The translations under genes and the position numbers were made by a program. From an uncultured Anaerolineae bacterium (GTDB lineage: Bacteria; Chloroflexota; Anaerolineae; Anaerolineales; Villigracilaceae): 64,000 bases of DNA. The notes below the pieces were generated by a model. The model made no database searches. It was not told the origin of the DNA and was given only the letters and a program-made list of their open reading frames with translations. Positions 5,033-63,023 of this stretch are shown here, in pieces. Location: NCBI GenBank assembly GCA_903875215.1, contig CAIQVH010000018.1:1-64000 (forward strand), written 5' to 3'. The stretch's first letter is position 1; each line of letters starts with the position of its first letter.

Positions 5033-6334
5033 ATGGACTCCAATCAAGTTTCGGCTTACAAGGTCATTGAGCAGGCGCAGCAGGCGATGAGGCGGGGAGA
5101 CGCAATTGCCGCCCGGCAATTTGCAGAACAAGCCGCGCTGGCCGCACCGGAGCTTGAGGAGGTGTGGTTGACGCTGGCCGCCCTGGCGGCCCCGCGCGCC
5201 AGCGTGGAATACCTGCAACAGGCGCTGCGCATCAACCCGCAGAGCCAGCGCGCTCAAAAAGGGCTGATCTGGGCGATGGGGCGCTTGCAGGCTGAGCAGC
5301 CATCTGCAGCAGATGCCACCCCCCAGCCTGCCGAGAAACCCTACAGAGCGGAACCCGCCTCCCCGCCTCGCGAACAACTGACCGGGGAGAGCACTGAACC
5401 GCTGTCGCGCCCGCTCGCAGCCGCGCTGCAGCCGCATCCCGCCCGACAGAATGCATCAACCGCCCCAAGGAGAATTCCCCAACCCGTTAAAAACCAACCC
5501 AAAAGCAGACGGATCGGCAAACAGATTGCATATGCGGCATTCTCGGTGCTGCTGATTTGCCTTGTTGCCGGGGTGCTGCTCGCCAGCCGGACTACGCCGG
5601 TTGCGGCGCTGTTCAGCAAACCAGTCAGCGGTCCGGCCTGGGCACCGGCAGTGGTATCCAAAGGCGTGGAAGCTCCGGCGCAACCGCCAACCCTGGCGCC
5701 GACATTGACTTTTCTGCCAACCGCGGGTTTTACAGCCACGGCCAGCGCCACGCGGACGGCTGCACCAACCCTCACAGGCACGACTGCCGCGACGGAGACG
5801 CCGCTTCCCAGCGCAACCCCCCTGCCAACCTTTACACCTGCGCCAACTGACACCCCCGCCCCAACTGAAACGCCTTCGATCACTCCTACAGAAGGCCCAT
5901 CTCCGACACCGCTGCCGACTGATACCGCCATGCCCACTGCGGTGTTGCCCACGCCAGTCTATCTTCCAAGCCTGCCGAGCAGTGAGCGCTGGATCGAGGT
6001 TAATCTCTCGCAACAGATGGTTTATGCCTACGAGGGCTCGACGCTGGTCAATTCTTTCCTGGTTTCAACCGGCACAGCGCAGACTCCTACGGTGACTGGG
6101 AGCTATCGCATCTATATCAAGCTGCGCTCAACGACCATGACAGGGCCAGGGTATTACCTGCCCAACGTACCGTTTACGATGTATTTTTACAAGAGCTATG
6201 GTCTGCATGGCACCTACTGGCACAGCAATTTCGGAACGCCGATGAGCCATGGTTGTGTCAATTTAAGCACCCCGGATGCCGAATGGCTGTATAACTGGGC
6301 ATCCGTTGGAACATTGGTCAATATTCATTACTAA
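5033..6334 (+). CDS. L,D-transpeptidase (YkuD) with TPR-like head and Thr/Pro stalk
   Basis: This 433-residue protein has four parts: a short helical TPR-like head (about 6-85), a membrane segment (about 164-184), a long Thr/Pro/Ala-rich stalk (about 205-315) and a C-terminal YkuD domain (about 321-433). The catalytic signature is complete: H392 in LHGT and S405-H406-G407-C408 in MSHGCVN, with C408 the nucleophile. The family forms 3-3 peptidoglycan cross-links or attaches proteins to the wall. The helical head would lie in the cytosol and the enzyme outside. AAGG lies 6 nt before the ATG. It follows the amidase gene and precedes a LURP-one-like gene by 12 nt. Confidence 0.9.
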   Translation: MDSNQVSAYKVIEQAQQAMRRGDAIAARQFAEQAALAAPELEEVWLTLAALAAPRASVEYLQQALRINPQSQRAQKGLIWAMGRLQAEQPSAADATPQPAEKPYRAEPASPPREQLTGESTEPLSRPLAAALQPHPARQNASTAPRRIPQPVKNQPKSRRIGKQIAYAAFSVLLICLVAGVLLASRTTPVAALFSKPVSGPAWAPAVVSKGVEAPAQPPTLAPTLTFLPTAGFTATASATRTAAPTLTGTTAATETPLPSATPLPTFTPAPTDTPAPTETPSITPTEGPSPTPLPTDTAMPTAVLPTPVYLPSLPSSERWIEVNLSQQMVYAYEGSTLVNSFLVSTGTAQTPTVTGSYRIYIKLRSTTMTGPGYYLPNVPFTMYFYKSYGLHGTYWHSNFGTPMSHGCVNLSTPDAEWLYNWASVGTLVNIHY

Positions 6335-53170: not shown

Positions 53171-54775
53171 ATGTGCGCATCTCAGCAACCCTTTCTCAGC
53201 GTCAGCAATCTCAGCCGGGCGTTTGGCTCGGTGGAGGCGTTGAGTGACATCAACTTTGAGTTGGAACCGGGCGAAGTGCTCGGCGTAGTCGGTCAGCGCG
53301 GGTCGGGTAAGACCACCCTGTTTCGCTTGCTCAATGGAATTTATACCCCCACCAACGGCGAGATTTTCATCCACGGCCAGCGCGTAAGCCTGCGGGCCGA
53401 TGCCAATGTCCAACAATTGGGCATCCAGAGCGCATACCAAAACCCACAGCTGGCCGACAACTTGGATGTGCTGAACAACGTTTTCCTGGGAAGGGAGATA
53501 TGCCGCATCCCGCGCTGGAAAATCTGGCCGGATGATGTGCAGATGGCCCGGCTGGCTCGCGACTTCTTCGCCGAACTTGACCTGCCGCCCGAGATCCTGG
53601 CGGAACGCCCCATCAACCTCTCCAACGAACAAAAACAACTTGTGGCAATCGCGCATGCCCTCTGCCGGCCGTGCCGCCTGCTGCTGCTTGATGACGCGCT
53701 GGCCGCGCTCAGTTTCCAGCGCCAGCAAATCCTGCTGAATCGCATCAAGGATCTTGCCGCGCAAAACGTCTCCACCATCATCAGCAGCGATGACCTGAAA
53801 CACATCTTCACCGTGACCGACCGAATTTTGGTGCTGTATGGAGGCCGGCAGGTGACCGTGCGCGCCACGCAACAAACCACACCCCGTGAAATAGTGGAAC
53901 TGATTGTCGGCTCAAACCAGCAGGAACAGATCACACCAGTCATCTGGGCCTTCGAAAACTATCACGTTGCCCAACAGCAGGCCGAGGAACTGCGCCACGC
54001 GCAAATGGCCCTGCGCCAGAGCCTGCAGGAACAGGATTCACTTAACCGGCTGCTGGTGGAGCGCCTGCGCAAACAGGTGGAAGCGCTCGACCGCCTGAAC
54101 CTGGCCATTCAGGAAGCCAACCGGCGCCTGATGACCGAACGCGAAACCGAGCGCAAAGCCCTGGCGCGCGAACTGCACGACCAGGTCATCCAGGACTTGC
54201 TCAGTTACAACTACCAGTTGGAGGATGCTGAAAATGAAACCAGCGACCCGGCCCAACGCCAGGAGCTGGCCAGCATCCGCAATGGCATCCGCCAGGTAGT
54301 CAGCAGCCTGCGCCAGATGTGCAGCGACTTGCGCCCGCCGACCATTGACAGTCATGGGCTTTCGGCAGCCATCCGCTCACTGGCCCATGACTGGTCAAAG
54401 CAAAACGATCTCTCTGTGGAACTGGAGATTGACCCAGGGCTGGGACGCCTGCCCGAGACGATCGAGCTGTCCGTTTTTCGCATCATCCAGGAAGGGCTGA
54501 GAAACGTGCGCAAACACGCCAATGCCACGCAAGTCAAGCTCTCTTTGCAGCGCACCGCCACCGCCAGCCTGGTGGTGCGGTTGATGGACAACGGTCAGGG
54601 CATGCCGCAGCCGGTCAACCTGGCAACGCTTTCGGGGGAAAAACATTTTGGTCTGGTGGGGATCAGTGAACGGGTCAGCCTGCTGGGAGGCACCATGCAG
54701 GTCGAGTCTCAGTCCGGAGGTGGGTTGGAACTTTTGATCGAAATTCCCAGCCCTTACCCAATGATGGTGGCTTGA
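53171..54775 (+). CDS. CUT2-type ABC ATPase domain fused to a NarL-type histidine kinase
   Basis: Residues 7-248 of this 534-residue protein resemble the N-terminal half of a ribose/multiple-sugar importer ATPase: Walker A GQRGSGKTT (41-49), Q-loop Gln at Q90, NVFLGREI (103-110), a signature-like LSNEQ (150-154) and Walker B LLLLDD (170-175). The catalytic Glu is D175 and the H-loop His is lost (IISSDD, 204-208), so hydrolysis is doubtful. A coiled coil (about 262-330) leads to a HisKA_3 domain with H336 (ELHDQVIQDLL) and a HATPase domain (about 430-528; DNGQGM, GLVGISERV). There is no membrane segment. It lies 24 nt after rpoD and convergent, with a 1-nt gap, to a response regulator gene; a sugar ABC operon follows. 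Confidence 0.93.
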   Translation: MCASQQPFLSVSNLSRAFGSVEALSDINFELEPGEVLGVVGQRGSGKTTLFRLLNGIYTPTNGEIFIHGQRVSLRADANVQQLGIQSAYQNPQLADNLDVLNNVFLGREICRIPRWKIWPDDVQMARLARDFFAELDLPPEILAERPINLSNEQKQLVAIAHALCRPCRLLLLDDALAALSFQRQQILLNRIKDLAAQNVSTIISSDDLKHIFTVTDRILVLYGGRQVTVRATQQTTPREIVELIVGSNQQEQITPVIWAFENYHVAQQQAEELRHAQMALRQSLQEQDSLNRLLVERLRKQVEALDRLNLAIQEANRRLMTERETERKALARELHDQVIQDLLSYNYQLEDAENETSDPAQRQELASIRNGIRQVVSSLRQMCSDLRPPTIDSHGLSAAIRSLAHDWSKQNDLSVELEIDPGLGRLPETIELSVFRIIQEGLRNVRKHANATQVKLSLQRTATASLVVRLMDNGQGMPQPVNLATLSGEKHFGLVGISERVSLLGGTMQVESQSGGGLELLIEIPSPYPMMVA

Positions 54776-54776
54776 T

Positions 54777-55829
54777 TCATTGTCCGAGGGCGTCTGCAAC
54801 GACCTGGCGCACAGTGGCGGCATCAAGGTCTTTTTTATCCAGAAAGGCCACAGCGCCAGCGCTGAGGGCCAGGCGGCGAAATTCGCGGTCAGGGTAAGCG
54901 CTGATCAGAATCAGACGCGTCTGTGGTGAAACCGCCTTGATGCGCCGCGCACACTGGATACCATCTTCCTCCCGCAGCACAACATCAATAAACGCCAACC
55001 GGGGTCTGACCAGCCCGGCCAGCCGGATGGCGTCGGAGCCATCTTCGGCTTCGTACAGGCTGGAGTTGGGCCAGGTTTTGGTGAGCTGTTTGCCCAACTG
55101 GGCGCGGTAGCGCGGATTGTCATCCACCAGCAGGACGGCGAGCGCCTCCACTGCCTGCGGCTCCAGGCGGTTTGGAAGTCTTTCCTGCCCAAAATTGGCG
55201 AGCAACTCTGGGTGATGGCTGGCAAAGTTATTCGCTTCCAGGCGGCTTTCCACACCAATGGCGCGATACAGCGCTGTCAGATGGTTTTCCACCGTTTTAA
55301 TGGAAAGGTCCATCACGCTGGCAATTTTCTGGTTGTTGTAACCCTGCGTCAGCAGGTAGAGCAGCTCGCGCTGGCGGCGGGTAAGGGCAGAATCATGCTC
55401 GGGGTGGGCTGGATGCTGATCCACCAGTCGATTGACCAGCGGGTCTGATATCCAGCGTCCCCCGCCCAGGATACGCTGAATCGCCAGCTGCAGATCCGCA
55501 AGCGGCTGGTCCTTGAGATGGTAACCATTGACTCCTGCCGAAAGCAGACCGACCACATAAGCTTGGTCGTCGTAGGCGCTGACGACCAGGATTTTCAGAT
55601 CGGGGTAGGCGGCGCGGAAAGCATGCACAGCTGCCACCGGCTCAAAATCCGGCATATTGACATCCATCAGGAGCAGGTCGGGATGCAATTGCTCAAGAGC
55701 CTGGTATAAAGCCGGGCCATTGCCCACTTCACCAATAATTTCGATGCCCGGCAGGCTGGTCAGGGCGTCGCGCAGCCCGGCACGGATCAGGGCGTGGTCA
55801 TCGGCAAGCAAGGTTTTGGTGGACGGCAT
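54777..55829 (-). CDS. Response regulator, receiver-LuxR HTH-receiver
   Basis: This 350-residue regulator has a NarL-type receiver (about 5-120; ADDH acidic pair, phospho-acceptor D56 in LLMDVNMP, K106), a LuxR/GerE helix-turn-helix (about 146-205; LTRRQRELLYLL, IASVMDLSIKTVENHL) and a second complete receiver (about 231-347; LLVDD pair, D282 in FIDVV). A NarL regulator normally ends with the HTH, so the C-terminal receiver is unusual. It is almost certainly the partner of the adjacent HisKA_3 kinase and is divergent from the sugar-uptake operon, whose upstream region carries repeated GGGGAA motifs. Confidence 0.93.
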   Translation of the reverse strand: MPSTKTLLADDHALIRAGLRDALTSLPGIEIIGEVGNGPALYQALEQLHPDLLLMDVNMPDFEPVAAVHAFRAAYPDLKILVVSAYDDQAYVVGLLSAGVNGYHLKDQPLADLQLAIQRILGGGRWISDPLVNRLVDQHPAHPEHDSALTRRQRELLYLLTQGYNNQKIASVMDLSIKTVENHLTALYRAIGVESRLEANNFASHHPELLANFGQERLPNRLEPQAVEALAVLLVDDNPRYRAQLGKQLTKTWPNSSLYEAEDGSDAIRLAGLVRPRLAFIDVVLREEDGIQCARRIKAVSPQTRLILISAYPDREFRRLALSAGAVAFLDKKDLDAATVRQVVADALGQ

Positions 55830-55853
55830 GGCGGGGGAGTGTCCAATTCATTA

Positions 55854-55906
55854 AGGGGAATCCCCTAACTCAACGGGGGAATTTTCCACCACAAAAAAAA
55901 GGGGAA
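55854..55906. promoter_or_regulatory. Candidate operator cluster: inverted AGGGG/CCCCT and three GGGGAA motifs
   Basis: AGGGG-AAT-CCCCT is a perfect short inverted repeat at 55854-55866. GGGGAA recurs at 55855, 55876 and 55901, spaced 21 and 25 bp, roughly two helical turns. All lie between the regulator start (55829) and the -35 of the uptake operon (55914). Confidence 0.5.
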
Positions 55907-55913
55907 GCAAGGG

Positions 55914-55942
55914 TTGAGCAGGGCCGGTAATTTAACTATGAT
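55914..55942 (+). promoter_or_regulatory. Promoter of the dual-receptor sugar uptake operon
   Basis: TTGAGC (55914-55919), 17 nt, TATGAT (55937-55942). Transcription would start near 55949, leaving a leader of about 115 nt. A weaker TATACT at 55943-55948 overlaps. The position just downstream of the GGGGAA motifs fits activator-dependent control. Confidence 0.6.
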
Positions 55943-56063
55943 TATACTGTACGCCTTTGTGGCTTTACAGAGAAGGAGGTGTGTTTTCCACATATTTTTT
56001 CCCGTTTCGCTCCCCAGTATTTCATCTCCATTCAACCTATTTTTTTCCCAGGAGGAAAAATCG

Positions 56064-58391
56064 ATGTTTAAGAAGAGTTCGCTTTACGTATTGATGGCAG
56101 TTCTGTTCATCGCGGCAGCCATTTTGTCTGCCTGCGGTGGGGCTGCTCCCGCCACTCAGGCCCCCGCCACCAGCAAACTGGCCGTGGGCATTGTGCTCCC
56201 CACCAAGGATGAGCCGCGCTGGATCCAGGACGAAACCCGCTTCAAGGATGCCCTGACCGCCGCCGGTTACGACGCTGAAATCCTGTTCAGCCAGGGTGAT
56301 TCGGCCAAAGAAAAGGCCAACGTCGAAGCCCTGATCACCAAGGGCGTCAAAGTCCTGATCATCTGCCCGCAGGATGGTGCCGCTGCCGCTGCTGCTGCGG
56401 ACGCCGCGCGCGCCGCCGGGGTCAAAGTCATTTCCTATGACCGCCTGATCCGTGACACCGACGCTGTGGATTACTACGTGACCTTCGACAGCGTGGCCGT
56501 GGGCGCTGCCCAGGCCCAGTACCTGGTCGACAAGGCCAGCGGAACCGCCAACCCGCTCTACCTGTATGCTGGCGCCGCCTCCGATAACAACGCCTTCCTG
56601 TTCTTCGAAGGCGCCTGGAATGTCCTCCAGCCCAAGATCGCCGATGGCACCTTCGTTATCAAGAACTCCAGCGAAGCCGTGGCTCTCCAGAGCAAGGCGA
56701 CCCTGACCCGCGATGAGATGGGCAAGATCCTCGGACAGGTTACCACCAACTGGGACTTCAACACTGCCAAGAACCTGGCCGAATCGAACCTGACCGCCGC
56801 TGCTGCCGCCGACAAGGGCAATGTATTCATCCTCGCCCCGAACGATGGCACCGCCCGCGCGATCGCCGATGCCTTCGGCGCTGACAAGGATGTCAAGAGC
56901 TTCGTGGTAACCGGCCAGGATGCTGAAAAAGCCTCCGTCCAGTACATCATCGATGGCAAGCAGTCCATGACCGTGCTCAAGGATGTCCGCACCCTGGTGA
57001 AGGACGCCATCACCGCCGCGGTTGCTTACCTCGAAGGCAAGACCCCCGAACAGACCAACACCTACAACAACGGCAAGATCGACGTTCCCGCCAAGCCTTC
57101 CGAAGTTGTGGCTGTCGATCAGGCGAATCTCAAAGCCGCCGTCATCGACTCGGGCTACTGGCCTGCCTCCGACTTCACCGGCCTCGACACGATGGGCGCA
57201 GCTCCTGCTCCCGCCAAGAGCCAGGTGGAAGTCTTCTCGTGGTGGACGGGTGGTGGCGAAGCCGCCGGCCTGGATGCCATGATCAAAGTCTTCGCGGCCA
57301 AATCCCCCGAGATTGAATTCATCAACTCCGCCGTCGCCGGCGGCGCTGGCACCAACGCGCGCGCCGTGCTCGCTTCCCGCCTGCAAGCTGGCGACCCGCC
57401 CGATAGCTGGCAGGGCCATGCTGGTCAGGAACTGATCGGCACCTACGTGGCTGGCAAGCAGATCGAGCCGCTTAACGATCTCTACACCGCCCAGGGTTGG
57501 CTGGATGTCATGCCGAAGACCCTTATCCCGCTCATCTCGGACGGCGGCAACATCTACTCCGTCCCGGTCAACATCCACCGCGCCAACGTGCTGTGGTACA
57601 ACCCGAAGGTCCTGACCGATAATGGCGTAGCCGTCCCGACCACCGTCGAGGAATGGCTCACCGCCATGGAAACCCTCAAGGGCAAAGGCGTTCAACCCCT
57701 CGCCCTCGGTGAACAATGGACCAAGATGCACCTGCTCGAAACCGTCCTGCTCGGCACCCTCGGCGCTGAGAAGTACAACGGCCTGTGGGATGGCAGCACC
57801 GATTGGGCTGGCGCCGATGTGAAAGCCGCCCTCGACAACTACGTCAAGGTGCTCTCCTACGCCAACACCGATTCCGCTTCACTCTCCTGGCAGGATGCTG
57901 CTCAGCTCGTCGTCAACGGCGACGCCGCCTTCAACGTCATGGGCGACTGGGCCGAAGGCTACTTCCGCGAACTGGGCAAAACCCCCAACACCGATTACGG
58001 CTGGGCCCCCGTGCCTGGTACCGTCGGCGTCTTCCAATTCCTGTCCGACTCCTTCGTCCTGGCCGTTGGCGCTCCGCACCCCGAAGCTGCCACTGCCTGG
58101 TTGACGATCGCCGGCTCGAAAGAAGGCCAGGAAGCCTTCAACCCCGTCAAGGGCTCAATCTGCGCCCGCACCGACTGCGACAAGACCCTGTTCGGTGTCT
58201 ATCTGCAGTCTGCCATGGATGACTGGGCCAGCAACACCGTCGTCGGCTCTTTGACACACGGCGTGGTAGCCAACGACTCCTGGAAATCGGAAATCGACAC
58301 TGCCCTCGGCCTGTTCATCGCCGACAGCAACGTCGAAACCTTCCAGGGCGCCCTGGCTGCGGCCTGCAAGAATTCCGGCCCCTGCAAGTAA
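56064..58391 (+). CDS. Fused double sugar-binding lipoprotein: ChvE-like (CUT2) plus maltose-type (CUT1)
   Basis: This 775-residue lipoprotein (signal to LSAC, Cys 24) contains two whole receptors. Residues about 34-371 match ChvE/xylose-binding proteins (VGIVLPTKDEPRWIQDE, VKVLIICPQDG, GVKVISYDRLI, FVVTGQDAE). A short Ala/Pro linker (about 374-385) follows, then residues about 387-775 match SBP_bac_1/maltose-type receptors (VEVFSWWTGGGEAAG, DSWQGHAGQEL, LWYNPKVL, AAFNVMGDWAEGY). Each half has the normal length of a free receptor. AGGAGG lies 8 nt before the ATG; the upstream in-frame Met is in the leader. Permeases of both classes follow in the operon, so the protein could feed both. Confidence 0.94.
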   Translation: MFKKSSLYVLMAVLFIAAAILSACGGAAPATQAPATSKLAVGIVLPTKDEPRWIQDETRFKDALTAAGYDAEILFSQGDSAKEKANVEALITKGVKVLIICPQDGAAAAAAADAARAAGVKVISYDRLIRDTDAVDYYVTFDSVAVGAAQAQYLVDKASGTANPLYLYAGAASDNNAFLFFEGAWNVLQPKIADGTFVIKNSSEAVALQSKATLTRDEMGKILGQVTTNWDFNTAKNLAESNLTAAAAADKGNVFILAPNDGTARAIADAFGADKDVKSFVVTGQDAEKASVQYIIDGKQSMTVLKDVRTLVKDAITAAVAYLEGKTPEQTNTYNNGKIDVPAKPSEVVAVDQANLKAAVIDSGYWPASDFTGLDTMGAAPAPAKSQVEVFSWWTGGGEAAGLDAMIKVFAAKSPEIEFINSAVAGGAGTNARAVLASRLQAGDPPDSWQGHAGQELIGTYVAGKQIEPLNDLYTAQGWLDVMPKTLIPLISDGGNIYSVPVNIHRANVLWYNPKVLTDNGVAVPTTVEEWLTAMETLKGKGVQPLALGEQWTKMHLLETVLLGTLGAEKYNGLWDGSTDWAGADVKAALDNYVKVLSYANTDSASLSWQDAAQLVVNGDAAFNVMGDWAEGYFRELGKTPNTDYGWAPVPGTVGVFQFLSDSFVLAVGAPHPEAATAWLTIAGSKEGQEAFNPVKGSICARTDCDKTLFGVYLQSAMDDWASNTVVGSLTHGVVANDSWKSEIDTALGLFIADSNVETFQGALAAACKNSGPCK

Positions 58392-58472: not shown

Positions 58473-59369
58473 ATGATGAAAATGTTGCGTGACAAAGACC
58501 GTTATCTTTCGGTCATTCTGATATCACCCTCCATTTTAGCCGTCCTGATTTTCATCTACGGATTCATCGCCTGGTCGATGCGGGTCTCCCTGAGCAAATG
58601 GAAAGGCCTCACCGCCGACTACACCTGGAACGGCCTGAATAATTACATCAACCTGTTCTCCGATCCCCGCTTTCATGTAGATATTCGCAACACACTCATT
58701 TTCACAGGCGTTTTCGTCATCGGCAGCATCTTGCTGGGGTTTTTTCTGGCAGTCTTCCTCGACCAGGGCTTGAAGGGCGAAGGCTTTTTCCGCAGCTTGT
58801 TCATCTTCCCAATGGCAATCTCCTACATCGTCACCGGCGTGATCTGGCGCTGGCTGATGAATCCGGCCCTCGGCTCACGCACCAGCGGCTTCAACCTGTT
58901 ATTTTCCTACCTTCATCTAGATTTTCTTAAAAACGCCTGGCACACCACCCCGAACTGGGGCATCGCCGCCATCGCCCTGGCCGCCATCTGGCAAATGTCC
59001 GGATACACCATGGCACTCTACCTGGCTGGCCTGCGCGCCATCCCCGGAGAACTGCGAGAAGCCGCGCAAATCGATGGCGCCACAGAGTTACAAATCTACC
59101 GTTACATCATGGTGCCTCTCCTATCGCCGGTCACACTCAGCGCGCTGATCATTCTCGGGCACATGTCACTCAAAGTCTTCGACCTGATTGTCGCCATTGC
59201 CGGCAAACAACTCCCGCTGGATGTGCCCGCCATTTACATGTGGCAAACTACCTTCGACGGCCTGTTCTACGGACGTGGCGCCGCCATTGGCATCCTACTC
59301 CTGCTCAGCGTGGCTGTTTTGATCATCCCCTACATTCGCTACACCCTCAAGACGGAGACTGAACAATGA
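58473..59369 (+). CDS. CUT1 sugar ABC permease, MalF/UgpA-like
   Basis: This 298-residue permease has six predicted helices and the coupling EAA loop (ELREAAQIDGATELQIYRY, then PLLSP) near residues 190-215. It starts on the cytosolic side with KDRYLSVILISPSILAVLIF. It forms a heterodimer with the next gene product. GAGG lies 6 nt before the ATG. The start follows the intercistronic hairpin, and its end overlaps the next start by 4 nt (ATGA), so the pair is translationally coupled. It is expected to work with the C-terminal half of the fused receptor. Confidence 0.94.
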   Translation: MMKMLRDKDRYLSVILISPSILAVLIFIYGFIAWSMRVSLSKWKGLTADYTWNGLNNYINLFSDPRFHVDIRNTLIFTGVFVIGSILLGFFLAVFLDQGLKGEGFFRSLFIFPMAISYIVTGVIWRWLMNPALGSRTSGFNLLFSYLHLDFLKNAWHTTPNWGIAAIALAAIWQMSGYTMALYLAGLRAIPGELREAAQIDGATELQIYRYIMVPLLSPVTLSALIILGHMSLKVFDLIVAIAGKQLPLDVPAIYMWQTTFDGLFYGRGAAIGILLLLSVAVLIIPYIRYTLKTETEQ

Positions 59370-60187
59370 AACTTAACCTCCGCCTCGGAAAAAATTGGAT
59401 CTATCTGCCCCTCGTTTTCATGGCAATCTTCTACCTGATTCCCATGTACCTGATGGTGATTACCGGATTCAAGAGCTTCGCCGAAGTTGACTTGAAAACC
59501 ATGTGGGACCTGCCCCATGGCATCGCCTTCGACAACTTCCTCGAAGCGTTCACCAAGCTCTCCCCCTCGCTATGGAACAGCTTCATGATGGTCATCCCCG
59601 CCACACTCATCTCCTCGGCGCTCGGATCATTGAACGGCTTTATCCTGGCCAAATGGAAATTCAAAGGCGCAGACATCATCTTCCCCTTCATCCTGTTTGG
59701 CATGTTCATCCCCTACCAAAGCATCCTGATCCCGCTTGTCCAGTTTATGAGCGCGGCAGGCATCAAAGGCCTGGCCGGCCTGGTCCTGGCTCACGTCATT
59801 TACGGTATCCCGATCACCACCCTGACCTTTCGTAATTACTATGCCAGCCTGCCACAAGAACTACTCGAAGCCGCCAAAATTGACGGGGCAGACATGCTCG
59901 GCATCTACCGTTACATTCTCCTGCCAATCTCCATCCCCAGCTTCGTGGTGGTCTTGATCTGGCAGTTCACTTCGGCCTGGAACGATTTCCTCTTCGCCGT
60001 GATACTGACCGGTAACAAGGAATGGCCAATCACCGTCGCACTGAATAACATGGCCGGCAGCCAGATCATTGCCTGGAACGTGCAGATGGCCGGTTCCTTG
60101 CTGGCCGCGCTGCCCCCCCTGCTGATTTACATCTTCCTCGGACGCTACTTCCTGCGTGGTCTGCTGGCCGGCTCACTCAAAGGCTAA
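59366..60187 (+). CDS. CUT1 sugar ABC permease, MalG/UgpE-like
   Basis: This 273-residue six-helix permease has the EAA motif ELLEAAKIDGADMLGIYRY followed by LLPISIP near 165-195, and the MalG-type C-terminus (GRYFLRGLLAGSLKG). It is the second half of the CUT1 channel. No CUT1-type ATPase (MalK/MsmX) is encoded in the window, so a shared ATPase elsewhere is needed, or, less likely, the CUT2 ATPase downstream is used. A 116-nt gap without a clear promoter separates it from the CUT2 genes. Confidence 0.94.
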   Translation: MKLNLRLGKNWIYLPLVFMAIFYLIPMYLMVITGFKSFAEVDLKTMWDLPHGIAFDNFLEAFTKLSPSLWNSFMMVIPATLISSALGSLNGFILAKWKFKGADIIFPFILFGMFIPYQSILIPLVQFMSAAGIKGLAGLVLAHVIYGIPITTLTFRNYYASLPQELLEAAKIDGADMLGIYRYILLPISIPSFVVVLIWQFTSAWNDFLFAVILTGNKEWPITVALNNMAGSQIIAWNVQMAGSLLAALPPLLIYIFLGRYFLRGLLAGSLKG

Positions 60188-60303
60188 TTCATGACAGGGT
60201 GAGCTTCACACAATATTCCTCAATAACTTGGCGGCGCGATCGCACGTCAAGTCGGATCCTCAAAGCATCAATTGGCACAACTCGATCGCATTTTGGAGTT
60301 GAT
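60188..60303. other. Gap between CUT1 and CUT2 halves of the operon
   Basis: This 116-nt spacer has no coding sequence and no clear promoter or terminator. CGATCGCA occurs twice, near 60237 and 60285, 48 bp apart. The only obvious signal is the GGAG ribosome binding site for the next gene. The junction may mark where two once separate transporter operons were joined. Confidence 0.4.
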
Positions 60304-61824
60304 ATGAGCACCCCCATTCTGGAAATGCAGCACATCACCAAGGAATTTCCCGGCGTGAAAGCCCTCAACGATGTCAGCTTTCGCGTTGCCGCCGGAGAAA
60401 TTCACTGCCTCGTCGGCGAAAACGGCGCGGGAAAATCAACCCTGATGAAAGTGTTAAGCGGAGTATACCCGCATGGCTCCTACAGCGGTGACATCCTGTT
60501 CAATGGTCAGGCGCAAAAATTCTCCGGCATTCGCGACAGCGAAAAAGCCGGGATCGCGATCATTTACCAGGAACTGGCCCTCGTACCGGAGATGACCGTT
60601 TTCGAGAACATTTTCCTCGGCAACGAAATTCACAACGGCTTTACCGTGGACTGGAACGAAACGATCAAACGCGCCACTGAAATGCTGACCAAGGTACACC
60701 TCGATGTCAACCCGGAGATGAAAATCAAAGATCTCGGCGTGGGCAAACAGCAGTTGATCGAGATTGCCAAGGCACTCAGCAAACATGTCCAATTGTTGAT
60801 TCTGGATGAACCCACCGCCGCGCTGAATGAAACCGACAGCGAAAACCTGCTCGATCTGTTGCGCGGACTCAAAGATCATGGCGTAACCTGCATCCTGATC
60901 TCGCACAAACTCAAAGAAGTCATCTCGATCGCCGATTCGGTCACCGTGCTGCGCGATGGCAAAACCATCTGCACGCTGGATGCCCACCAGGGCGAAGTCT
61001 CCGAAGCGGTGCTGATCAAGCACATGGTCGGGCGCGAAATTGACAATATCTACCCTCCGCGCCAGCGCATGGCTTCTGAAGAGATCCTGCTCGAAGTGCG
61101 CAACTGGAGCGCCTACGATCCCAACCTGGGCCGCAATGTACTCAAAGAGATTTCGTTCAATGTTAAAAAAGGTGAAATCATCGGGTTTGCCGGGCTGATG
61201 GGTTCAGGACGCACCGAACTAGCCAAGAGCATTTTCGGAAACCCAGGCGGGTATCACATCCAGGGTGAGATGTACCTGCGTGGAGTGCAGCAAAACTTCT
61301 CGCACCCACAGCAGGCTATCAGCGCGGGGGTGGCTTATGTCACCGAGGACCGCAAGGGCAATGGCCTGATCCTGATCCAGGATGTGAAGCAGAATATTAC
61401 CCTCGCAAACCTGCGCGCCATCTCGGAGCGCGGTGTGGTGGACAGCAACGCCGAGGTGAAAGTTGCCAACGAGTACAAAACCTCGCTCAACATCAAGACG
61501 CCCACCGTCGAGCAGACGGTTGGTAACCTGAGCGGCGGCAACCAGCAAAAGGTTTCGGTAGCAAAATGGCTATTCGTCAAACCCGACCTGCTTATTCTGG
61601 ATGAGCCAACGCGCGGCATTGACGTTGGCGCCAAGTATGAAATCTATACCATCATGACCCGCCTGGTGGAACAGGGCCTGAGCATCATCATGATCTCATC
61701 AGAACTGCCCGAAATCCTGGGGATGAGTGACCGCGTCTATATTGTTTCCTCCGGCAAAATCACCGGAGAACTGCCGGCCGGGGAAGCGACGCAAGAAAAA
61801 ATCATGCACCTGGCAACTAATTGA
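60304..61824 (+). CDS. mmsA: CUT2 multiple-sugar ABC transporter ATPase (two ATPase domains)
   Basis: This 506-residue protein has two ABC domains, as in RbsA, XylG and GguA. The first half has Walker A GENGAGKST near 35-43, LGVGKQQLIEIAKAL and LLILDEPTAAL, with a normal H-loop ISHKLKE. The second half has the altered Walker A GLMGSGRTEL, LSGGNQQKVSVAKWL and LLILDEPTRGIDVGAKYEIY. It energises the CUT2 permease encoded next. The ATG at 60304 has GGAG 5 nt upstream; the longer frame starts in the spacer and is rejected. Its first half is the clearest relative in the window of the ABC part of the kinase fusion at 53171. Confidence 0.95.
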   Translation: MSTPILEMQHITKEFPGVKALNDVSFRVAAGEIHCLVGENGAGKSTLMKVLSGVYPHGSYSGDILFNGQAQKFSGIRDSEKAGIAIIYQELALVPEMTVFENIFLGNEIHNGFTVDWNETIKRATEMLTKVHLDVNPEMKIKDLGVGKQQLIEIAKALSKHVQLLILDEPTAALNETDSENLLDLLRGLKDHGVTCILISHKLKEVISIADSVTVLRDGKTICTLDAHQGEVSEAVLIKHMVGREIDNIYPPRQRMASEEILLEVRNWSAYDPNLGRNVLKEISFNVKKGEIIGFAGLMGSGRTELAKSIFGNPGGYHIQGEMYLRGVQQNFSHPQQAISAGVAYVTEDRKGNGLILIQDVKQNITLANLRAISERGVVDSNAEVKVANEYKTSLNIKTPTVEQTVGNLSGGNQQKVSVAKWLFVKPDLLILDEPTRGIDVGAKYEIYTIMTRLVEQGLSIIMISSELPEILGMSDRVYIVSSGKITGELPAGEATQEKIMHLATN

Positions 61825-61835
61825 GGAGACCTCCC

Positions 61836-63023
61836 ATGTCCTTTTTCCGCAATGCTCAAAAACTGCTGCGCCAGAACATCCGTGAATACGGCATGTACAT
61901 CGCCCTTTTCGTCATCATGGCCATTTTCACCTACACCACCGAAGGTGTGTTCATCTCCCCGCGCAACATCAGCAACCTGTTCAATCAGACTGGCTACATC
62001 GCCATCCTGGCCGTTGGGATGACGCTGGTAATCGTCATCCGCCACATTGACCTGTCCGTCGGCTTCCTGGCGGGCTTCCTGGGCGCCGTGGCGGCCACCG
62101 CGCTGGTTTTCTGGAAACTACCGTTGATCGTCGTCATTGTGCTCGTACTGCTGCTGGGCATCCTGGCCGGGCTGATCACCTCCTTCCCGGTGGCCCAGTT
62201 AAAAATACCGTCCTTCGTCGCCTCGTTGGCCGCCATGCTCATCTATCGCGGCGCGCTGGTGCTGGCCACGATCAAAACCGGCACAATCGTCATCCCCGAC
62301 CCAATCTTTAACGCCATCGGCAACGGCTACATCCCCGACCTGCCCATCCTGGCCGACTTCCTGCCCAATATTCACAAACTGACCCTGCTGATTGGCCTGC
62401 TGGCAGTGATCCTGTTCGTCATCAGCGAGATCAGCTCACGCCGCAAAAAACAGGCCTACAACTTTGAAGTCCTCTCCATGGATATGTTCATCCTGAAACT
62501 GGTCTTCGTCTCGGCTCTGGTGGGCGGCATCACCTGGGTGCTGGCCGGCTACAATGGCATCTCGTGGACGCTCGTGATCGTGCTGGTCGTCGTCGCACTG
62601 TACCACTTTATCACCACCCAGACGGTGCTCGGCCGCCACATCTACGCCATTGGCGGAAACCCCGAAGCCGCCGAGCTGAGCGGTATCAGCGTCAAAAACC
62701 TAACCTACATTGTCTTCGGCTCGATGGGCCTGCTGACAGCCCTCTCCGGCATCCTGTTCACCTCGCGTCTGCAATCGGCCACCACCACCGCCGGAACGCT
62801 CTTCGAACTTGACGCCATCGCTGCGGCTTACGTTGGCGGCGTCTCTGCGGCAGGCGGCGTAGGCAAAGTAACAGGCTCCATCATTGGTGCCTTGGTGATG
62901 ATGTCGCTGACCAGTGGCATGAACCTGATGGGCATCGACATCTCGCTGCAATACATCGTCCGCGGCGCAGTACTCGTTGCCGCCGTGGTATTTGATGTCA
63001 CGACCCGCACCAGCAGCAAATAA
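61836..63023 (+). CDS. mmsB: CUT2 multiple-sugar ABC permease (GguB/XylH-like)
   Basis: This 395-residue permease has about ten predicted helices and the BPD_transp_2 pattern: NISNLFNQTGYIAILAVGMT, HIDLSVGFLAGFLGA, VASLAAMLIYRGALV and GRHIYAIGGNPEAAELSGI, then AAAYVGGVSAAGGVGKV. The long version with an extended central loop (SEISSRRKKQAYNF) matches the XylH/GguB branch for xylose or multiple monosaccharides. GAGGAG lies 7 nt before the ATG at 61836 and overlaps the ATPase stop region. It should dock with the N-terminal half of the fused receptor. A strong terminator follows. Confidence 0.95.
   Translation: MSFFRNAQKLLRQNIREYGMYIALFVIMAIFTYTTEGVFISPRNISNLFNQTGYIAILAVGMTLVIVIRHIDLSVGFLAGFLGAVAATALVFWKLPLIVVIVLVLLLGILAGLITSFPVAQLKIPSFVASLAAMLIYRGALVLATIKTGTIVIPDPIFNAIGNGYIPDLPILADFLPNIHKLTLLIGLLAVILFVISEISSRRKKQAYNFEVLSMDMFILKLVFVSALVGGITWVLAGYNGISWTLVIVLVVVALYHFITTQTVLGRHIYAIGGNPEAAELSGISVKNLTYIVFGSMGLLTALSGILFTSRLQSATTTAGTLFELDAIAAAYVGGVSAAGGVGKVTGSIIGALVMMSLTSGMNLMGIDISLQYIVRGAVLVAAVVFDVTTRTSSK

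Follow-up and report, generated by a model that had tools for sequence, protein, structure and literature searches.

What is an ATPase domain of a sugar importer doing at the front of a histidine kinase? The question is raised by one gene in the window (the whole stretch of 64,000 nucleotides analysed here), which an initial annotation had read as an ABC domain fused to a histidine kinase. The single product of 534 residues indeed matched three Pfam domains above the Pfam cut-offs, ABC_tran (residues 24-177, E 4.9e-25), HisKA_3 (residues 327-390, E 3.8e-13) and HATPase_c (residues 432-527, E 2.4e-09). These are its only Pfam domains at E 0.001 or better, neither SLC5 nor STAC being among them, and no hydrophobic or membrane segment was seen when the sequence was checked by eye. 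The H, N and G boxes that mark a HisKA_3 sensor histidine kinase are all present. The phospho-acceptor H336 was correctly pointed out in the annotation, but the name 'NarL-type kinase' was wrong because NarL is a regulator; the kinase type is HisKA_3. For residues 6-251 the top NCBIfam matches were the N-terminal halves of CUT2 ATPases (xylose ATPase at 7e-44, YtfR, XylG and AraG), all below the whole-protein cut-offs because the query is half a protein. The protein is a cytoplasmic HisKA_3 kinase with a predicted pseudo-ATPase ABC domain as its sole input domain. The coordinates of its parts and of the neighbouring genes are summarized in Table 1.

Table 1. Features of the fusion gene and of the adjoining sugar-importer region in the window.
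Feature	Position	Strand	Remark
ABC domain-histidine kinase fusion	53171..54775	+	534 aa, ATG start, unbroken ORF
ABC (nucleotide-binding) domain, CUT2-importer type	53171..53914	+	residues 1-248
Walker A GQRGSGKT, kept	53291..53314	+	residues 41-48
NNVFLGRE, between Q-loop and signature	53474..53497	+	residues 102-109; presumed coupling-helix cleft
Degenerate signature LSNEQ	53618..53632	+	residues 150-154; second Gly replaced by E153
Walker B LLLLDD	53678..53695	+	residues 170-175; D175 replaces catalytic Glu
H-loop position	53789..53791	+	His replaced by D207
Long helical linker	53921..54145	+	residues 251-325; modelled as single helix 251-356 entering kinase
HisKA_3	54149..54340	+	phospho-acceptor H336 at 54176-54178
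HATPase_c catalytic domain	54464..54751	+	
Response regulator REC-LuxR HTH-REC	54777..55829	-	350 aa; convergent with kinase
Palindrome TTAAGGGGAATCCCCTAA, candidate operator of regulator	55851..55868		2 mismatches to family form, 3-base centre
Sugar-binding protein, ChvE/XylF-type domain fused to CUT1-type domain	55914..58391	+	likely start 56064
Candidate -10 element TATACT	55943..55948	+	after palindrome and G-runs; by eye
CUT1-type permease	58473..59369	+	
CUT1-type permease	59366..60187	+	
GguA-like CUT2 ATPase	60199..61824	+	two ABC domains; likely start 60316
GguB-like CUT2 permease, proposed docking partner	61821..63023	+	likely start 61836
Presumed coupling-helix motif GGNPEAAELSGI of GguB-like permease	62652..62687	+	

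The structural model of the fusion protein (pLDDT 85.7, pTM 0.53) consists of an ABC fold, one helix (residues 251-356) continuing into the phospho-acceptor helix, and the catalytic domain; because of the pTM of 0.53, the placing of these domains relative to each other is not reliable. Among the PDB matches of the model, importer ATPases such as FbpC, MalK and DppD were nearest to the ABC part.

The gene belongs to a family. At E 1e-60 or better, and with the window's own genome counted, matches to the fusion were detected in 27 of 400 genomes (14 of 225 genera) sampled across the phylum and in 63 of 396 genomes (46 of 223 genera) of the class; the two samples overlap, and contig ends truncate a few of the matches. 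A total of 92 full-length proteins was recovered, of which 91 are distinct, including that of the window. With 91 distinct full-length members that keep the kinase catalytic residues, a chance reading frame or an assembly join is ruled out. The distribution is patchy, since a second genome of the window's own genus contains no family member at 1e-80. Six short peptides, looked for as exact matches in GTDB contigs, an approach that reaches close relatives only, gave 18 stretches; 14 of these are relatives, all named as Anaerolineae or Chloroflexota or placed there, including Anaerolinea and Ornatilinea, which we take to be Chloroflexota. In plasmid records, one match covers at least 80% of the query, and no evident fusion was found among the 20 matches listed of at least 5000, these being ABC ATPases or unannotated.

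Is the ABC domain still an ATPase? The H-loop His and the second Gly of the signature are both lost in all 91 distinct members, so that the intact pair of a functional CUT2 ATPase is found in 0 of 91. The H-loop position is occupied by D (41 members), Q (15), N (11), K (9), S (6) or others (9), and the signature position by Glu in 90 members and by Asp in one. The annotation had noted Asp for the catalytic Glu and the missing H-loop His, both of which are seen in the window protein (D175 and D207); the signature change (LSNEQ, E153) is a second broken motif beyond that description. The catalytic Glu itself is Asp in 42 members, kept in 37 and another residue in 12, and the argument on hydrolysis is carried by the His and Gly losses because of these 37. 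The proposal that nucleotide is bound but poorly hydrolysed holds as to the residues for hydrolysis lost in 91/91, but the catalytic Glu, kept in 37/91, does not bear it out across the family. Of the 91 members, 85 keep the Walker A Lys (it is replaced in five, and one row is truncated), 89 the Walker B Asp and 81 the Q-loop Gln; the window protein has both the Lys and the Asp. In the NxFLGxE segment, which in MalK presumably sits near the cleft for the coupling helix, the residue corresponding to E109 is Glu in 91/91, including the five rows that have lost the Walker A Lys and keep the FLGxE groove motif (L165, L166, L175, L176 and L178, two of which look like near copies).

As controls, the ABC domains of importer operons in the same loci were compared. 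Of 46 N-terminal domains, 41 retain His as well as Gly and five have Ala or Ser at the signature Gly; of 13 single-domain rows, 12 retain the pair and the odd one (L070) is a kinase fragment. All 46 C-terminal domains of the tandem ATPases have Ser where the H-loop His would be, so that a missing H-loop His alone is not unusual for CUT2 proteins. It is the signature Glu that sets the fusion family apart. On the kinase side, H336 is present in 91/91 members and the N-box Asn in 90 of the 90 readable rows, while P256 and W259 of the linker are invariant in the 75 rows aligned (the window and 74 of 86 kinases, near copies left out). By its motifs, the ABC domain of this family is predicted to be a pseudo-ATPase, which probably binds ATP in most members without hydrolysing it. 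From the geometry of ABC dimers, two intact sites would be formed neither in a homodimer nor in a mixed dimer, because one protomer has lost both His and Gly.

The origin of the domain was examined in a tree of 86 ABC domains, with 24 kinase rows from 41 drawn at random from the 91. The 24 rows form one clade (support 100/99), sister to 11 single-domain ATPases of CUT2 operons (98/94). A wider CUT2 group (96/92) also includes the N-terminal domains of tandem CUT2 ATPases and six ATPases of the window's genome, which are encoded near permeases of the same Pfam family. Outside this group are the C-terminal tandem domains and, again from the window's genome, 11 further ABC ATPases, with long branches among the outgroups and a weak root. 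The annotation had named a grouping with non-transport ATPases as the outcome that would speak against it; the ABC part groups with sugar-importer ATPases instead, and an origin from non-transport ABC proteins is ruled out by its position within the CUT2 group (96/92). It had also described the domain as the N-terminal half of a CUT2 ATPase, which was right as to the CUT2 type but not as to the nearest kin, which are half-size, single-domain proteins (98/94). The branching fits a single capture of one single-domain CUT2 ATPase by a kinase.

Which transporter might the kinase be concerned with? In the window, the GguB-like CUT2 permease is encoded about 7 kb from the kinase gene. In its structural model the presumed coupling motif is on a short helix (276-281) flanked by two long helices; no PDB match was obtained for this model at E 0.001, the best weak ones being importer permeases, PsaBC (0.049) and BtuC (0.11). 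Likewise, no solved structure was found close by sequence to the window's permease (E 0.001) or to its ATPase (E 1e-60). The operon mixes importer types, two CUT1 permeases being followed by a CUT2 ATPase and permease, and no CUT1 ATPase gene was seen among its genes. The second domain of its binding protein, joined by an in-frame fusion, is GlcS-like and of the CUT1 type.

For a systematic comparison, 97 loci including the window were collected, which gave 95 after removal of 2 duplicates; many of the contigs end early. Within 9.5 kb of the kinase gene, a CUT2 permease (as detected by tblastn) was found in 71 of the 95 loci, the regulator in 65 and a permease or binding protein in 80. For the 48 loci in which each flank extends for 7 kb or more, the numbers were 41 for the permease and 37 for the regulator, and all 37 loci with the regulator, the window's included, also have the permease; these fractions are descriptive because the loci are related and unevenly sampled. 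The genetic link to be expected of a transporter-coupled sensor kinase was found in 41 of the 48 well-flanked loci, in answer to the annotation, which had counted the lack of any link with an ABC permease against its own proposal. In the window's genome (3.77 Mb), with 14 permeases of the CUT2 permease Pfam family in 8 clusters and 14 HisKA_3 kinases, the fusion is the only one of these kinases within 9.5 kb of such a permease, the next being at about 10.6 kb (by eye). Among the permeases found in the loci, 65 of 86 have their own adjoining ATPase gene.

Against docking on a permease stand the 7 of 48 well-flanked loci without a CUT2 permease (six of one genus, and L153) and the 11 of 48 in which the regulator is beyond 9.5 kb or absent. 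In the six genomes of that genus, a regulator homologue is located elsewhere, about 2.6 kb from a CUT2-type permease, and in the two that were opened it is divergent from genes for a binding protein, a single-domain ATPase and a permease. In the genome of L153, the regulator homologue is on another contig and no CUT2 match was detected in the 12 kb covered there. The loci of one genus in which the kinase is without a nearby CUT2 permease or regulator are L085-L090; in L085 and L087 the gene before the kinase looks like radical-SAM MqnC/CofH. In L057, L060, L066, L067, L069, L094 and others, the binding-protein gene codes for two ChvE-like domains in tandem (about 720-760 aa), one copy of which may serve the sensor.

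In a total of 15 loci, an extra CUT2-type permease gene leads into the kinase gene, either through a binding-protein gene (9 loci) or directly (6 loci). These were taken from 18 kinase-adjacent permeases without an ATPase gene beside them, leaving out L108 and L125, which are cut off upstream, and L168, in which GGN is retained. In a tree of 84 permeases, a branch with FastTree support 0.947 divides the 15 extra ones from all others; being a single permease lineage, they are not independent and count as one event. The smallest group holding the kinases of these loci includes 56 of the 91 kinases. A permease alignment comprises that of the window and 49 of 68 listed permeases. At the presumed coupling helix, the motif of the extra permeases is changed. 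The GGN at its start was found in 0 of the 15 extra permeases as against 64 of 65 permeases adjacent to an ATPase gene, and a Glu-Arg after the motif was found in 11 of the 18.

As to a motor for these extra permeases, tblastn detected a tandem CUT2 ATPase in 8 of the 15 loci and one weak ABC match in L155, and no other CUT2-like ABC domain in the stretches of L143, L144, L145, L157, L167 and L169. In L143 and L157, no less than 6.8 kb is available on either side; the other four stretches run into a contig end on one side. L157 and L167 come from two genomes of the same genus, and in both the regulator gene is followed by those for permease, binding protein and kinase, spaced 4 to 36 bp apart, the last three genes being confirmed by Pfam. 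In L167 (L167:782-9196), this cassette and a CUT1 sugar-importer operon point away from each other, and a perfect palindrome (position 5765) lies in the gap between them, as if the receptor controlled an importer of a different kind. In L080, L081, L084, L091 and L095, the extra permease comes after a complete importer operon and may be the other half of an importer that is a heterodimer; ATPases encoded elsewhere in the genome could serve other extra permeases.

What would the kinase control? The neighbouring regulator is composed of a receiver, a LuxR-type HTH and a second receiver, and both receivers were spanned in 63 of 64 homologues recovered, with the phospho-acceptor Asp kept in both receivers in 63/63. 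An additional C-terminal receiver seems unusual for NarL-type regulators. A palindrome was first spotted by eye in the gap between the regulator and binding-protein genes of the window and nine close relatives. Allowing up to three mismatches to the family form TAGGGGAAATCCCCTA, we detected 45 matches in 41 of the 95 loci, against 3.3 expected from simulated sequence (sd 2.1, highest 8 in 20 runs); 60 palindromes whose halves had been shuffled gave 2.9 on average (highest 13). Since 9 of the 10 discovery loci have one match each, 36 matches are outside the discovery set. The density was 1.01 per kb within 330 bp upstream of the regulator (23 of 65 loci) and 0.019 per kb elsewhere in the loci. 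Altogether 41 of the 45 matches, in 38 of the 95 loci, precede a regulator or binding-protein gene by no more than 400 bp, counted from its estimated start, the remaining four being in L146, L151, L175 (one of two) and L179. Against a general role, 54 of the 95 loci have no match at up to three mismatches.

In the window's own 3.77-Mb genome, the palindrome of Table 1 was the sole match to TTARGGGRAATCCCCTAA at up to two mismatches, and the reversed form of the same pattern gave no match. The strict pattern GGGGNNNNCCCC gave 0 matches in the window versus 3.1 expected by chance, because the palindrome there has a 3-base centre and 2 mismatches. Downstream of it, G-runs are found near 55875 and 55901, followed by the TATACT at 55943, a layout that might, at a guess, suit an activator. 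An element like ATTATA[CG]TG at 55940-55952 was noticed by eye in the window and in the five relatives covered that far, and is a candidate promoter.

The reading that we prefer is of a kinase which reads a CUT2 permease and controls the importer, because the lost motifs, the gene order, the extra permeases and the palindrome all fit it. The ABC domain, acquired in a single capture from a sugar importer of CUT2 type, would dock on the cytoplasmic coupling helix of the permease, with ATP bound in most members but not hydrolysed. The sugar-loaded binding protein would change the state of the permease, by which the ABC domains of the kinase dimer would be shifted, and the long linker helix would relay this movement to H336. 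Phosphate would then pass from the kinase to the neighbouring REC-LuxR-REC regulator, which may act at the GGGG-CCCC palindrome that precedes both the regulator gene and the transporter operon. Some members of the family would have a permease, often together with a binding protein, dedicated to the kinase, an importer without ATPase serving as the receptor, while in the lineage of the window the kinase would read a working importer. As the best explanation of the whole, a non-hydrolysing ABC domain that docks the kinase on a sugar permease, and so makes it a receptor controlling its own operon, is given a probability of roughly 0.6. The chances appear evenly balanced for the further proposal that an importer was turned into a receptor, in which the kinase with its dead ABC copy replaces the ATPase and the interface works backwards, from permease to phosphorylation, and elsewhere shares the permease of a working pump and reports transport directly.

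The main rival is docking on the importer ATPase rather than on the permease, the ABC domain binding to that ATPase or replacing one of its ABC domains, so that the kinase would throttle transport and read the nucleotide cycle and not the conformation of the permease. Candidate partners exist, since the 13 distinct single-domain rows adjoin a CUT2 permease gene and 12 of them are intact, and in L083 and L096 the genes directly before the kinase code for a single-domain ATPase and a permease; the sister position of single-domain ATPases in the tree also agrees with it. A mixed dimer, however, would put the broken signature against a good Walker site, and 6 of the 15 stretches with an extra permease, two of them with 6.8 kb or more on either side, have no other CUT2-like ABC domain to dock on; we consider this rival improbable. 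The other rival is a free cytosolic sensor of ATP, ADP or a sugar metabolite which makes no contact with a transporter, the linkage merely mirroring the regulated target. That any regulator tends to adjoin its target operon agrees with this, as does the conservation of the Walker A Lys and Walker B Asp described above. Such a sensor hardly explains why the presumed docking motif is kept in the five rows in which the Walker A Lys is lost (two being near copies), and gives no account of the changed coupling motif or of genes for ATPase-less extra permeases and binding proteins leading into the kinase. This rival, too, seems rather unlikely. As for a transport ATPase that is still active and carries a kinase tail, the overall ABC fold, the Walker motifs and the catalytic Glu of 37 members are retained, but the loss of signature Gly and H-loop His in every member and the presence of own ATPase genes beside most permeases leave it scarcely credible, and on account of the motif loss it was set aside.

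How does docking on a permease compare with systems already described? In the BceS-BceAB system, a kinase and an ABC transporter are described as one sensory complex controlling expression of the transporter (PMC7828314, PMC11109136). The likeness lies in the pairing of an ABC transporter with a histidine kinase and in the control of the transporter's own expression, but BceS is an intramembrane-sensing kinase of an antimicrobial-peptide transporter, whereas the fusion kinase contains the ABC domain itself, shows no membrane segment by eye and has sugar-importer genes as neighbours, unlike a Bce-type module. BceS is not known to carry an ABC domain. The CUT2 ATPases GguA and XylG and the single-domain ATPases, presumably FrcA-type by name, are the closest sequence relatives of the ABC part, from which the fusion differs by loss of the H-loop His and signature Gly and by gain of a kinase. 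The kinase part of the fusion matches NCBIfam UhpB below its cut-off, and UhpB/UhpC are alike in that a HisKA_3 kinase listens to a transporter relative as sensor; the differences are that this sensor, UhpC, belongs to the MFS and that UhpB contains a membrane domain of its own. In XylFII-LytS, a second sugar-binding protein feeds a two-component system controlling a sugar importer.

A binding-protein-driven kinase is also reported for CuaD-CuaS-CuaR, a two-component control of a sugar importer fed by a second sugar-binding protein (PMC10384115). In both CuaD-CuaS-CuaR and XylFII-LytS, the binding protein touches an extracellular domain of the kinase, whereas the fusion kinase has no such part. 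The transceptor CbrA is described as a kinase joined to a transporter (PMC13022988). The SLC5-STAC kinases CbrA and CrbS resemble the fusion in the covalent joining of a transporter part to a histidine kinase and in nutrient sensing, but there the membrane transporter is fused, while here only the soluble ABC motor domain is fused and the membrane part is a separate protein; by its Pfam domains the fusion kinase is not an SLC5-STAC transceptor. A common fold has been pointed out for S-components and kinase membrane domains (PMC11109136). Among the open-licence PMC papers listed, as represented by their titles and the beginnings of their abstracts, no description was found of a kinase with an ABC ATPase domain as input, and in a survey of two-component domains (PMC4558063) the terms 'ABC transporter' and 'ATPase' occur 0 times. 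The fusion would be a variant of the transporter-coupled sensor kinases, with an ABC ATPase domain as input.

If the preferred reading is true, the interface between ABC motor and permease, which normally drives transport, would be reusable for carrying a signal from the permease to a kinase, and ABC importers would gain a covalent sensory branch. The system would be a clean one in which to ask what conformational state of an importer is being read, because some dedicated permeases have no pump of their own nearby, and a scaffold for sugar biosensors is suggested. That the kinase recurs next to sugar-importer genes across many Chloroflexota suggests that the importer serves it as a receptor and, if so, how many of these bacteria may detect sugars.
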